A stretch of DNA of 64,000 bases from Chloroflexota bacterium (GTDB lineage: Bacteria > Chloroflexota > UBA11872), in contig JAPOYR010000003.1 of the NCBI GenBank assembly GCA_026706485.1, forward strand, positions 1 to 64,000, read 5' to 3'. Within the stretch, counting starts at the first letter, position 1. Every line of letters starts with the position of its first letter. The notes below the pieces were generated by a model. The model was given only the letters and a program-made list of their open reading frames with translations, was not told the origin of the DNA and did not search any database. Both the position numbers and the translations under genes were made by a program. Of this stretch, positions 2,760 to 52,102 are shown one piece after another.

Positions 2760-4570
2760 CGGGCGGATTCTCCTGGCGCGACCGGCTTGGGTTTCGGGCG
2801 GGAGCTTGGCTCGGCAGCCTCGAACGGTCCGGGCAGCAGCACGATGTCACGCGGGAACAGCAGGTCGATGGCCCAGTCCAGCGCCACCCGCACCTTGCGG
2901 TCCATGCCCGGCAGCTTGGTGAAGTAGATCGTGCGCCACATGACCCAGGCGACGAAGCCGGAGAATTTGCGGCCGGCCACTTCGGCGGCGGCGGTGCGCG
3001 ATCCGAGCGCGACCAGCGAGCCGATGGCGCGGTAGCTGAACGGCTTGGGCGCCTGCCCGCGCGCGACGGCCACCACGTTGTCGGCCACGGCCTTGCCCTG
3101 GCGGATCGCGTGCTGCGCGGTGGGCGGGTGAAAGGCGCCGGGCCGGTGCACGTCGGGCACCTGCGCGCCGTCGCCCAGGGCCCACACGCCATCGAGCCCC
3201 GGCACTTGCAGGGTGGTTTCAACGACGAGCTGGCCGCGCCGGTTGCGCTCGCAGGGCATCCCGCGCAACAGCGGGCTCGGCTGGTTGCCGGCGGTCCATA
3301 CCAGCGTGCGCGTCGGAATCCGGGAGTCGTCGTCCAGGGTCACGCTCATGGCGTCGGCGGCAGCCACGCGCTGGCCGAGCACGAACTCGATGCCGCGGCG
3401 CTCTAGCCTTTCGCGCGCGTAGTCGCCCAGCTCCCGGCTCAGCTCGGGGATGATGCGGTCGCTGGAGTGCACCAGCACGAACCGCGGCTCCTCGCGCCCG
3501 ATACCGGGGTAGTAGCGCCGCACGCTGCGCACGAGGTCGAAGAGCTCGGCGATAGCCTCGGTGCCGGCGAACCCGCCTCCCGCCACGGCGAACGTCAGCA
3601 GCGCCTCGCGCGCGGGACCGTCGGCCTGCTGCTCCGCGGTCTCCAGCGCCGTGATGACGTGGTTGCGCAGGCGGGCCGCGTCTTCGAGGGTCTTGAGGGT
3701 GAAGGCGTGCTCGGCGAGCCCCGGGAGGCCGTAAAACGCGGGCACGGAACCGACCGCCACGATCAAGTGGTCGTAGGCGATCCGCTCGGTCCGATCGGAG
3801 CCGATGGGGACGGCGGTGATGCACCTGGCGTCGGCGTCGACCGCCTGGACATCGGCGTGGCGAAATCGCGTGTGCGGGCAGGCGACGCGGATCGGGGCGG
3901 AGATGGCCTGGGCGTCCAATCCGCTCGACGCCACCTCCGCGAGCATCGGGGTAAAGAGCAGGAAGTTGCTGCGGCTCACCAGGGTCACGTCGAGCGGCAC
4001 GTCCCTGCGATGCAGCTCTTCGAAGCGCTGCGCGGCCCCCAGGCCGGCAAACCCGCCGCCCACAATCACGACGCGGACGGGCTGGTCGGACACTCGGGAG
4101 GCGGCTGGAGCTTCAGCGCCCTGGCCGACCCCCACGCGAGTCGCCAACGCCAGCAGCACGCCAAGTCCCCCGCCGAACATCAGGTGCGCGATGAGGCTGG
4201 GAAAGTGCCGCGACGCGGCCTCGACCGACCAGGTGGGGGCGTCGCCGTCGAGCGCCGGACCGATGGTGAGCGGACCGACGACCCAGAGGATCAGCCCCGT
4301 CATGAGGGCCAGCGTGATGCGCGAGGCGTGCTCGCCGCGCCGGCGCAGCGGAATCACGCGCGCATAAATCGCCCCCGTCGCGGCCCCGATGACTAGGTGC
4401 ACGGCCAGCAACGCGTCGTCGACCGGCGAACCCAGCAGTCCGTCGAACCCGCCCATGGGCGACGCCGGAACCAGGAACACGAGCGCCGCCGCGGCGCCCG
4501 CCAGGGCGCCGATCAGCACAGGCTCACGCGCGAGGCGCGTCACCAGGCGACCGGCGCGCCGGCGGCGCAC
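2756..4570 (-). CDS. type II NADH dehydrogenase fused to an N-terminal membrane domain
   Basis: A 604-aa protein. Residues 1-150 form a membrane unit of the same kind as those in the following gene (W-V-V-G-P-L...TWSVEAA...LMFGGGLG). Residues 165-604 are a two-dinucleotide-binding-domain flavoprotein: the FAD motif is VGGGFAGLGAA at 170-180 and the NADH motif is AGGGFAGTEA in the middle, followed by GDGAQVPD, the FAD-contacting signature. This matches NDH-2, which oxidises NADH and reduces quinone without pumping protons. Usual NDH-2 proteins are about 400-450 aa and attach peripherally, so the N-terminal fusion is unusual. The start is GTG at 4570, one base after the stop of the DM13 gene. 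Confidence 0.88.
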   Translation of the reverse strand: MRRRRAGRLVTRLAREPVLIGALAGAAAALVFLVPASPMGGFDGLLGSPVDDALLAVHLVIGAATGAIYARVIPLRRRGEHASRITLALMTGLILWVVGPLTIGPALDGDAPTWSVEAASRHFPSLIAHLMFGGGLGVLLALATRVGVGQGAEAPAASRVSDQPVRVVIVGGGFAGLGAAQRFEELHRRDVPLDVTLVSRSNFLLFTPMLAEVASSGLDAQAISAPIRVACPHTRFRHADVQAVDADARCITAVPIGSDRTERIAYDHLIVAVGSVPAFYGLPGLAEHAFTLKTLEDAARLRNHVITALETAEQQADGPAREALLTFAVAGGGFAGTEAIAELFDLVRSVRRYYPGIGREEPRFVLVHSSDRIIPELSRELGDYARERLERRGIEFVLGQRVAAADAMSVTLDDDSRIPTRTLVWTAGNQPSPLLRGMPCERNRRGQLVVETTLQVPGLDGVWALGDGAQVPDVHRPGAFHPPTAQHAIRQGKAVADNVVAVARGQAPKPFSYRAIGSLVALGSRTAAAEVAGRKFSGFVAWVMWRTIYFTKLPGMDRKVRVALDWAIDLLFPRDIVLLPGPFEAAEPSSRPKPKPVAPGESAR

Positions 4571-4571
4571 G

Positions 4572-5297
4572 TTACGCGGGGAGGGTCGCGGTCGCGAACA
4601 CGACGTGGAACGGCACGCAGTAGATGACGACGCTGTTGTACGTCGACAGGTCGGTGCCGGCCGGGATCTCGTAGTTCTGGTTGCCGATGTTGCCCTTCAA
4701 CGCACCCACGTCGATGTAGTCGCCCAGCTGCTGGCTAGACGCCGGCGCGGGCGCCGACGACAGCAGCACGCTCAGCGCCGGACCGTTGGTGACCATAAAG
4801 TCGGTGAGGCGCAGCACCAGCTTGTCGTCGGGCGTGCGGAAGATGGTGGCGGTTCCGGAGCCGCGGTGAAAGTCGTCGGCGCCGCGGAACTGGCCCTCGC
4901 GCAAGAGCTCAGGCTGCGGCGCGGCTTCCGCCTGCGGCGTGGCCTCGGGCTTCGGCGTGGCCGCCGGCTCTGGCATGGCGGGCATCGGCTCGTCCATCAT
5001 GGTGTCGGGCATGGCGGCGGCCGCCTCCATCACCCGCTCCTGGACCACCATGCGGTCCGCTTCGGCCAGCTCCTCGATCTCCATCAGCGTGGGGACGGCG
5101 GCCTCGAATTCGGCGGCCATCTCCTGCTTCTCTTCCTCGGTCATGGTCTCCATGGCGGCGGGTTCCGGAAGCTCGAAGGGGAACGCCTCGTCAACCACGG
5201 TGTCACGAAAGAGCGGCGAGATCAGCCACCAGGCAATCGCCACCGCAACGATGATTCCGACTAGTCCACCGCCGATCAGCACTCGTCGTCGAGTCAT
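4572..5297 (-). CDS. DM13-domain protein with N-terminal membrane anchor
   Basis: A 241-aa protein. Residues 5-30 form one transmembrane helix, residues 35-125 are an acidic, Ala/Glu/Met-rich linker, and about 130-241 are a DM13 domain (F-R-G-A-D-D-F-H-R-G-S-G at the start, then a conserved Cys in VVIYCVPFHV near the end). DM13 domains are predicted redox or electron-transfer modules related to cytochrome-like DOMON domains. It is the first gene of the operon with NDH-2 and the repeat membrane protein; GGAGG lies five bases before its ATG. An extracytoplasmic electron-transfer role is inferred from this context. Confidence 0.82.
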   Translation of the reverse strand: MTRRRVLIGGGLVGIIVAVAIAWWLISPLFRDTVVDEAFPFELPEPAAMETMTEEEKQEMAAEFEAAVPTLMEIEELAEADRMVVQERVMEAAAAMPDTMMDEPMPAMPEPAATPKPEATPQAEAAPQPELLREGQFRGADDFHRGSGTATIFRTPDDKLVLRLTDFMVTNGPALSVLLSSAPAPASSQQLGDYIDVGALKGNIGNQNYEIPAGTDLSTYNSVVIYCVPFHVVFATATLPA

Positions 5298-5389
5298 GTC
5301 AGCCTCCTTCGTACCGCCCTACGTTCGGCTGCCGCGGGCAGATTCCGTTGGACGTAGTGTGTACCTCCGACACCATACGCTGCCAGCCG

Positions 5390-6151
5390 CTAGGCGACGG
5401 TGTCTCCCACCACACTCAGCGCCAGATCGAGGCGCGACGTCGTGAATTGGTCCACATCGCATTCGATGGCTCGTGCGATGGCTGTCGCGTCGTTCACATT
5501 GGCGCCGTGCACCTGCATGCCCGCACCGTGCAACCGTCCGACGAAGTCCGCGTCGATCATGCCGATGGGCAGATGCGCGATTCGAGCGCCGGCCAACGAC
5601 ATCAGCTCCATGACCTGTCGGTGGCCCAACTCCGGTCCCATCCACTTCGGCCACGGGTCAACGAAAAACATGCCGGTGGGAATGCGCGGCTCGCGGCAAT
5701 GCATGTGCCACAAGAGCGGCCGGTGCCCGGTCGTCAACTCCACCGAGCCAACGGCGTCGGCGGCTCGGATGGCTTCGAGCACCCGCTCCAGGAACGCCAG
5801 CGTGGTCCCCTTGAGCTCGATCTCAAGGCGCACGCGCCCGGCGGCGAGGCTGAGCACCTCCTCGAGCGTGGGAAGGCGCTCGCCGGCAAACGCCTCGCCG
5901 AACCACGCGCCGGCGTCCAGCGCCCGCAGCTCCGCGAGGGTGTGGTCAGTGACGAGCCCCGCGCCGTTGGTGGTGCGCGCGAGGTAGTAGTCGTGGTGGA
6001 CCACCGGCGCTCCGTCGCGGCTCGGGTGGACGTCCAGCTCGATGCCGTCCGCCCCGGCGTCGATCGCGGCGGCGAAGGCCGGCAGCGTGTTCTCGGGACC
6101 CGCCGCCGTGTCGCCGCGATGCGCGATGACCAGCGGCTTGCGGGGCGCCAT
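5390..6151 (-). CDS. ugpQ: glycerophosphodiester phosphodiesterase
   Basis: A 253-aa GDPD-family TIM-barrel enzyme that hydrolyses glycerophosphodiesters to glycerol-3-phosphate and an alcohol. The catalytic signature is near the N-terminus: HRG at 11-13, ENTLPAF at 20-26, then GIELDVHPSRDG and HHD, supplying the metal-binding Glu/Asp and the general acid-base His pair. The length is that of the cytoplasmic UgpQ-type enzyme and no signal peptide is seen. It follows the helicase gene by 29 bp on the same strand. Confidence 0.9.
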   Translation of the reverse strand: MAPRKPLVIAHRGDTAAGPENTLPAFAAAIDAGADGIELDVHPSRDGAPVVHHDYYLARTTNGAGLVTDHTLAELRALDAGAWFGEAFAGERLPTLEEVLSLAAGRVRLEIELKGTTLAFLERVLEAIRAADAVGSVELTTGHRPLLWHMHCREPRIPTGMFFVDPWPKWMGPELGHRQVMELMSLAGARIAHLPIGMIDADFVGRLHGAGMQVHGANVNDATAIARAIECDVDQFTTSRLDLALSVVGDTVA

Positions 6152-6180
6152 GCGCTTGCCGCCCTCGGATCCCGGTACGA

Positions 6181-7587
6181 CTAACGGTTGCCGGCCGCCT
6201 CAGCCCCCGCCTTGCGCGGACGGCGTCGGCGTCGGTTGGACCGGGGTGCGCGGCCGTTTGCGCCGTTGGCTTTCGCCTTGCCGCCGCTCAGGCGTTCGCC
6301 GGGCATCACGCGGCGACCGTTGGCAGCCGCGGGTGTTTCGGCGGGTTCGTCGTCAGCCGGCAGAAACTCGGTCTTGATTTCGTCCCAGTAGCGACGCGGG
6401 ATACGGCGCTCGAGCGAGTACTCGATCGAGGCCAGCCGGTCGAGTCCGGCGCCGCTGACGAGGGTGACGGAACGACCCGCGCGGCCCATGCGGCCGGTGC
6501 GGCCGGTGCGGTGGGTGAACATGTCGGGGTGATCGGGAATGTCGTAGTTGATCACCTGGGCCAGACCCATGATGTCCAGGCCGCGGGCGGCGACGTCGGT
6601 GGCAATCAGCACATCGATCTCTTCTTGGCGGAACCGATCCATCACGCGCTGCCGCGAGGGCTGGGGCATACCGCCCTGAATGGCGTCCACCCTAAGACCG
6701 CGGCGGCGCAAACGGTCGCGCAGAAGGTCGACGCCGCGGCGGGTGCGACCAAACACAATTGTGGGCACGCCGGGCGACTGCTGAAGGATGCCCTCAACTG
6801 CCGTGGCTTTTTCCATCTCGGGCACGACCCAGATCTCGTGGTCGATTTCGGGCAGATCTTCGGGCCGGGTGTCCAGCGCCACGTGCTCGGGGTCGCGCAG
6901 GTGGCGCAGGGTGAGCCGCGCAACCCAGCCCGGCACGGTGGCCGAGAACAGCGCCGTCTGCCGCGAGGCCGGCGAATAGCGCAGGATCGACTCGACCTGG
7001 GGCGCCATGCCGATGTCGAACATGCGGTCGGCCTCGTCGATCACGAGCACGCGCAGATCGTCGACATTCAGGTCGCGGCTTTCGATCAGGTCCAGCACGC
7101 GTCCCGGCGTGCCCACCACGACCTGCGCGCCCTGGGCGAGCGCGCGGCGCTGTGGGGTGTAGCTGAGCCCACCGACGATGCGCACCGACGGCGGGGCGCT
7201 CGGACCGAGCAAGGGATCGATGACGGTGCCGATTTGCTCGGCAAGCTCGCGGGTCGGCGCCAGCACCAGGGCCTGGACGCGCGGCAAATCGGGGTCAAGG
7301 CCTTCGACGAGCGGGATGGCGTAGGCCAGGGTCTTGCCGGAGCCGGTTCGGGCTTGCCCGACGACGTCGCGGCCTTCGAGCAAGTGCGGAATGCAGGCGG
7401 CTTGGATGGGGGTGGGACTGGTGATCTCGTCGGCCGCCAGCGCGTCGACGAGATCGGGTCGAACGCGCAGCGCGGTAAAACTCTCGATAGCGGGGGCCCT
7501 TCTGCTGCAACTGGCGCCCGCGGTGGGCCGATCGTTATCTGCGGCCCGCGCCCTACGTGGTGCGCTGGGCGCCTCTAGCTTTCTCAA
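6181..7587 (-). CDS. DEAD-box ATP-dependent RNA helicase (RhlE-like)
   Basis: All superfamily-2 helicase motifs are present: Q motif SPTPIQ, Walker A ARTGSGKT, PTRELAEQ, the DEAD box in VIDEADRM, SAT in FSATVPGW, ATDVAARGLD and HRTGRTGRMGR. The C-terminal 80 residues are basic and Arg/Lys-rich, as in RhlE-like enzymes that bind structured RNA. The start is uncertain: the frame stays open to 7680, but that would overlap the divergent gene at 7665. The TTG at 7587 (468 aa) avoids this; the helicase core begins only at IESFTALRV. Probably co-transcribed with gdpD. Confidence 0.88.
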   Translation of the reverse strand: MRKLEAPSAPRRARAADNDRPTAGASCSRRAPAIESFTALRVRPDLVDALAADEITSPTPIQAACIPHLLEGRDVVGQARTGSGKTLAYAIPLVEGLDPDLPRVQALVLAPTRELAEQIGTVIDPLLGPSAPPSVRIVGGLSYTPQRRALAQGAQVVVGTPGRVLDLIESRDLNVDDLRVLVIDEADRMFDIGMAPQVESILRYSPASRQTALFSATVPGWVARLTLRHLRDPEHVALDTRPEDLPEIDHEIWVVPEMEKATAVEGILQQSPGVPTIVFGRTRRGVDLLRDRLRRRGLRVDAIQGGMPQPSRQRVMDRFRQEEIDVLIATDVAARGLDIMGLAQVINYDIPDHPDMFTHRTGRTGRMGRAGRSVTLVSGAGLDRLASIEYSLERRIPRRYWDEIKTEFLPADDEPAETPAAANGRRVMPGERLSGGKAKANGANGRAPRSNRRRRRPRKAGAEAAGNR

Positions 7588-51601: not shown

Positions 51602-52102
51602 CTAGCCGTCGGCCTCGTGACGCTCCATCAGCGCCCAAAGATCCTTGCTCTCCGGCCACTCGAGCGAGTGCCGCCCCACGAACACCTCACGCACGATGCC
51701 GGTGGGATCAATGAGGACCACGGAGGGCCGCGCCATGTTCCACGACTCGAAGTTGATGCGGACGTAGACGCCGTAGTCGCGGACCATTCGCCGCTCGGGA
51801 TCGACCAGCACCGGGAACGGAAGCGCTTCACGCTCGGCGAAGGCGTCGACAACCTTGAGGCCCTGCGCAAAGACGAAGGCCACAGCCACGTCCCGCCTCG
51901 TCCACTCGTCCAGCTCGACCTCGAGCCGCGCCATGTAGCCATGGCAGCTCAGTCACCAGACATGCCGCAGAAAGACCAGGTAGAGCCAGCGGTCGGCAAA
52001 ATCCTGCAAGACGGTGCGCTTGCCGGTTCCGGCGATATGGGCGTGGAAATCGGGCGCAGGTTCGCCGATGGTGAGTGTCGTCGAGCCCTTGGCGCGCGGC
52101 AT
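51602..52102 (-). CDS. redoxin/peroxiredoxin-like protein with in-frame TGA: candidate selenoprotein (UxxC)
   Basis: From ATG 52102 (TAGGAG upstream) the frame runs 166 codons to the stop at 51602 with one internal TGA at 51955-51953, codon 50. The N-terminal part reads TIGEPAPDFHAHIAG and WLYLVFLRHVW, a thioredoxin-fold beginning; after TGA come LSCHGYMARLEVELDEW and the redoxin end (SVVLIDPTGIVREVFVG). The TGA falls where AhpC/TSA-type relatives have their active-site Cys (FLRHxxCxxC), giving U50-L-S-C53. A hairpin with a G-first loop follows at 51950-51923. Reading TGA as selenocysteine is inference; a broken gene or sequence error is the alternative. It starts 9 bp after the ABC permease gene. 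Confidence 0.7.
51923..51950 (-). promoter_or_regulatory. candidate SECIS hairpin after the in-frame TGA
   Basis: On the coding strand GAGC (51950-51947) pairs with GCTC (51926-51923) and GCCATG (51945-51940) with CATGGC (51935-51930). They enclose loop GCTA, whose first base is G, and leave a bulged U on the 5' side. Bacterial SECIS elements have such a loop G and often a bulged U. The loop is 13 nt after the TGA, slightly closer than the usual 16-37 nt. Confidence 0.45.

Follow-up and report, generated by a model that had tools for sequence, protein, structure and literature searches.

The gene at positions 52102-51602 (minus strand) of the window, by which we mean the whole 64,000 nt stretch of Chloroflexota DNA analysed here, almost certainly encodes a selenoprotein. 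The UGA at codon 50 would be decoded as selenocysteine (Sec) by the organism's own SelA, SelB, SelD and tRNA-Sec. Insertion would be guided by a hairpin in the downstream coding sequence, most likely the one at 51928-51911. The predicted product is a UxxC Prx-like protein of 166 residues with a peroxiredoxin fold, whose redox pair U-L-S-C (U50 read from TGA) would be positioned at the N-terminal end of the active-site helix. Comparative evidence strongly supports the decoding step, whereas the chemistry is what we infer from alignments and the link to an ABC exporter from gene position.

Reading frame and conservation of the TGA codon

The minus-strand frame runs from ATG 52102 to a TAG stop at 51602 and is open except for one internal TGA (51955-51953), exactly as given in a preliminary description of this locus. 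Readthrough places U50 in the context W-U-L-S-C. An AGGAG Shine-Dalgarno sequence, as read from the DNA, is located at 52113-52109 (minus strand) and overlaps the TAG stop of the preceding permease gene. The domain model PF00578 (AhpC-TSA) spans the TGA and covers residues 12-139 (E 6.7e-23; 81.4 bits against a cut-off of 26). Because PF00578 matches across the codon and all 30 close copies keep it, the open frame on either side of the TGA by far exceeds what chance would give.

Close copies, defined by E 1.6e-44 or better, were collected by searching whole genomes of the order as well as 400 genomes from the phylum. The 30 copies, from 20 genomes within the order and 47-93% identical to the window protein, contain one TGA each, always at the same residue, and Cys is found there in none of them (0/30). 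Their motif is U-L-S-C, U-L-N-C or U-P-N-C without exception, and the codon of C53 is TGC in all. In a scan of contigs, 14 Chloroflexota loci with 47-93% identity to the window protein all showed TGA at codon 50 and no further internal stop; these loci largely derive from the same genomes that hold the 30 close copies.

In distant Prx-like proteins the aligned position is occupied by U (UPNC, UPFC, ULPC, UMQC), by C or rarely by S. Homologues with Cys at the Sec site are exclusively distant ones, namely L023 (CPLC), L061 (CPQC), L062 (CYQC) and L067 (CQHC). Alignment of homologues had been proposed as a check of the selenocysteine reading, and it returned TGA or Cys at this site and not random stops. 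No close Cys orthologue was among the copies found; Sec/Cys exchange is seen only at about 25-30% identity. Judged by sequence, the branch is Sec-only in all copies found. Two relatives, L059 and L084, are missing both UxxC residues (WSTST and WSPAT, respectively), which suggests a redox-inactive branch.

Comparison of the window gene with its orthologues gives a dN clearly lower than dS both before and after the TGA, and both halves of the gene are under purifying selection. The conservation of the TGA, the alternation of U and C and the low dN relative to dS therefore rule out that the TGA is a sequencing error, the mark of a pseudogene or a genuine stop. If the TGA were nevertheless a real stop, owing to gene decay or faulty reads, only a 110-aa fragment starting at ATG 51934 would be made. 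This is what standard annotation would give, and the truncated ORF, already pointed out in the preliminary description, is indeed present and still matches PF00578 (E 2.2e-12). However, such a reading is extremely improbable considering the TGA in 30/30 copies from independent assemblies and the selection acting on both halves. Moreover, most orthologues have CTG or TTG in place of ATG 51934. It is therefore not a conserved start, and the 110-aa conventional ORF is ruled out as a real gene.

Selenocysteine machinery and genetic code

The genome (3.37 Mb, 97.9% complete) contains a complete Sec-decoding set. A tRNA-Sec was detected with 70 bits and also by ARAGORN (anticodon TCA). SelA (E 5e-124), SelB (E 5.7e-86, with the C-terminal match within the same 711-aa frame) and SelD (E 2e-112) were found as well. 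Hence the search for this machinery, which the preliminary description had named as a check, was successful for all four components, and its selenocysteine reading is well supported in view of the complete set and the TGA in every close copy. SelA was found in 20 of the 20 genomes with a close copy. A TGA-containing Prx-like relative (L066) is encoded in a genome, G040, in which SelA was not found at E 1e-30. Since this assembly is only 77% complete, the missing SelA is probably an assembly gap.

We also considered that near-cognate suppression or an altered code might turn the UGA into a codon for another amino acid, e.g. Trp. The UGA directly follows a Trp codon, and nothing else is in favour of this. 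TGA is the terminator of 3 of the 12 window genes examined, and the orthologues of the selenoprotein gene in L015 and L022 themselves end in TGA; the code is therefore not changed globally. In addition, the site corresponds to the redox Cys position in relatives and the full Sec machinery is present. Decoding as an amino acid other than Sec is thus highly unlikely, and we retain the selenocysteine reading.

Other genes of the genome contain in-frame TGA codons, too. The SelD gene (L089:1183-2268, minus strand, genome contig C1) has one within GAGUACKL, which gives the genome at least one further candidate selenoprotein, and one of a classic kind. Three tandem Prx-like genes (L088:3063-3887, 4564-5601 and 5620-6678; contig C11:503000-513000) exhibit one in-frame TGA each. 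Their motifs FWUGTC, FWUTTC and FWUTAC are preceded by what looks like a signal peptide and by a long linker rich in Pro and Thr, and the genes adjoin others with cytochrome-like CxxCH motifs. The tandem proteins are probably exported selenoproteins.

Hairpins downstream of the UGA

Two hairpins follow the UGA on the minus strand (base 1 is the U of the UGA). Hairpin 1 (51945-51930) consists of the stem GCCAUG/CAUGGC (bases 11-16/21-26) and the loop GCUA, 13 nt after the UGA. Its stem begins 6-7 nt past the TGA and its role is uncertain. Hairpin 2 (51928-51911) has a stem of 7 bp, CGGCUCG/CGAGCUG (bases 28-34/39-45), and the loop AGGU (51921-51918), 31 nt after the UGA.

The model of bacterial SECIS elements comprises a stem of 4-16 bp, a loop of 3-9 nt, a G in the first two loop positions and a distance of 16-37 nt between UGA and loop (PMC13188914). 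Hairpin 2 agrees with this model in every family member, whereas hairpin 1 fails with respect to spacing. The preliminary description had put forward hairpin 1 as the SECIS. The hairpin with its G-first loop exists 13 nt after the TGA as described, but it is too close for the model. The expectation of a hairpin with a bacterial SECIS layout was correct, but this is more likely the next hairpin, which was not mentioned there. Searches against the Rfam SECIS families gave no match.

Hairpin 2 is completely paired in 17 of 17 distinct sequences, in which one-sided changes preserve pairing. Its loop varies from AGGU to CGGG whereby the first and last loop bases stay complementary. Doubly changed pairs are not observed in this helix because it hardly varies. 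Across 16 genomes, codons 58-64 (ARLEVEL) are free of synonymous differences (0 in 840 comparisons; 7 codons x 120 pairs), while the gene average is 35%. This run of seven codons is the longest invariant one in the gene (P 0.0002 by shuffling) and includes CGG, CTC and GTC, for which the window genes have more frequent synonyms. The invariant block coincides with hairpin 2, the helix of which covers codons 59-64. When the window sequence is recoded at random with synonymous codons, hairpin 2 arises in 2% of cases (P 0.02) and hairpin 1 in 26% (P 0.26). Going by model fit and codon conservation, hairpin 2 at 51928-51911 is most likely the SECIS.

Alternatively, the SECIS of the same selenoprotein might be hairpin 1 or a composite of both hairpins, which we regard as unlikely. 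Almost all family members have hairpin 1 (97% of cells paired, two doubly changed pairs), and in the second paralogue its pairing exceeds the expectation from codon choice (P 0.0003). It may thus still matter. As a SECIS, however, it lies outside the spacing of the model, one of its pairs is broken in L041, L044 and L057, and its codons vary synonymously. In the window it is hardly beyond what the coding sequence gives by codon usage. Moreover, hairpin 1 is absent from most distant relatives, which have a hairpin within the model instead.

This hairpin of the distant relatives (L058, L060, L063, L064, L066, L079-L082 and L085) is located at bases 23-28/33-38 with the loop AGUU or GGUU, 25 nt from the UGA. 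It covaries strongly, as 4 of its 6 pairs are changed on both sides and no shuffle reaches its covariation score. With hairpin 2 as the likely SECIS at 31 nt here and a hairpin at 25 nt in the distant relatives, the SECIS therefore seems shifted by two codons. Seemingly the shift preceded the split of the family's two paralogues; L058 is a sister copy that still has the hairpin at the position of the distant relatives. That within one selenoprotein family the SECIS moved by six nt (from 25 to 31 nt), with the UGA keeping its place and an additional hairpin arising near it, is a tentative proposal, to which we assign slightly less than an even chance.

Predicted fold and active site

The predicted structure is a peroxiredoxin fold (pLDDT 86.7, best Z 21.9). 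The active-site region is confident, and U50 directly precedes the active-site helix (residues 51-62). An obvious signal peptide is not found in the 166-residue product. U50 and C53 align with the two WCxxC cysteines of ResA in a sequence alignment. In the phmmer alignment C53 corresponds to the peroxidatic position of peroxiredoxins and R125 to their conserved Arg. The peroxidatic Cys, the Thr of the TxxC motif and the conserved Arg are active-site residues of peroxiredoxins, and the alignment places the putative Sec at the position of this Thr. The preliminary description had equated the codon with the first active-site Cys of relatives. This is valid for CxxC Prx-like and ResA-like relatives but not for true peroxiredoxins, which have the Thr of TxxC at this position.

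The protein would act as a selenol/thiol-disulfide oxidoreductase or as a peroxidase-like enzyme. U50 would attack the substrate, C53 would resolve the resulting selenenyl-sulfide and a thiol donor would re-reduce the enzyme. A true Sec-assisted peroxidase, in which C53 would be the peroxidatic Cys and U50 would assist it, is conceivable but less likely. C53 and R125 align with the peroxidatic Cys and the conserved Arg, and the best fold matches are peroxiredoxins. On the other hand U replaces the Thr of TxxC, the UxxC pair resembles that of ResA with U50 aligned to its first Cys, and the known family of UxxC proteins is assigned to the thiol:disulfide oxidoreductases (PMC13188914). Disulfide oxidoreductase chemistry hence appears likelier than peroxidase chemistry.

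Relation to known families

UxxC proteins with PF00578 are a listed selenoprotein family, the Prx-like thiol:disulfide oxidoreductases (PMC13188914, PMC9312934). The same kind was named 'Prx-like 1' in the GOS survey (PMC2398784), and Prx-like UxxC is given in PMC1088965. Due to its PF00578 domain and UxxC motif we place the window protein in this known family, with the activity itself being predicted. The family members (PF00578, UxxC/UxxU) have in common the domain, Sec as the first residue of UxxC, a SECIS within the coding region and Cys homologues at the site. The window branch differs from them by Sec alone in all copies found, from Prx-like relatives by its location mostly in an ABC exporter operon and from the more distant ones by a likely SECIS two codons further downstream.

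The best NCBIfam match is NF040769, a SelL-related redox protein (E 4.7e-18), which has the same active-site region. However, the window protein reaches only 65.4 bits against a cut-off of 120, and the C-terminal part of the model is unmatched. In contrast to the UxxU diselenide of SelL, the second residue of the UxxC motif is C53. PrxU and typical 2-Cys peroxiredoxins share the fold (Z about 21), the Arg position and a Cys at the peroxidatic position, but unlike in PrxU (TxxU) the Sec of the window protein would be located at the Thr position of TxxC and not at the peroxidatic one. The PrxU model NF040737 gives 29.3 bits against a cut-off of 270. Likeness to ResA/TlpA thiol-disulfide oxidoreductases is found in the aligned UxxC and WCxxC pairs, but the window protein has no visible membrane anchor and stays far below the cut-off of the ResA model. 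In the literature searched, which left most subscription journals outside, no description of Chloroflexota or sponge-symbiont members was found. The same applies to a lineage with Sec alone, to the operon shared with the exporter genes and to the seemingly shifted SECIS.

ABC exporter operon and paralogues

The selenoprotein gene is the third in line after an ABC ATPase and a permease. The ATPase of the DrrA type (53820-52927, minus strand; PF00005 E 6.1e-27) overlaps the start of the permease gene and matches drrA TIGR01188 with E 1.2e-56, which is below the family cut-off. The ABC-2 family permease (52930-52112, minus strand; PF12679 E 2.4e-11) is the first upstream neighbour in the operon. 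The position within an ABC exporter operon, as noted in the preliminary description, is corroborated by the conserved upstream ATPase-permease genes at all four same-genus loci checked (L009-L012).

ABC genes also adjoin 13 of 13 copies of the second group (L055-L057, L069-L078). They are absent at ten copies (L045-L054) whose sequences resemble the window gene more closely. The operon link is hence old but not universal. Genomes of a sister genus hold two UxxC paralogues, and the ABC genes accompany the 48% identical copy but not the closer one. This pattern suggests relocation, replacement or differential loss after duplication. The position of the gene points to a function tied to the exporter, e.g. 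acting on the redox state of the exported compound or protecting the pump.

Implications

The conserved trio of ABC exporter genes and selenoredoxin has a function that is open to testing. The family moreover offers a clean comparative data set, with a putatively Sec-only state across a whole bacterial family and a seemingly displaced SECIS. If true, the displacement would serve as a natural experiment on the spacing that SelB can tolerate and on the replacement of SECIS elements under coding constraint. Standard gene callers would truncate the selenoprotein in every genome of the lineage, dropping its catalytic half, and the redox capacity of these uncultured Chloroflexota would therefore be understated.
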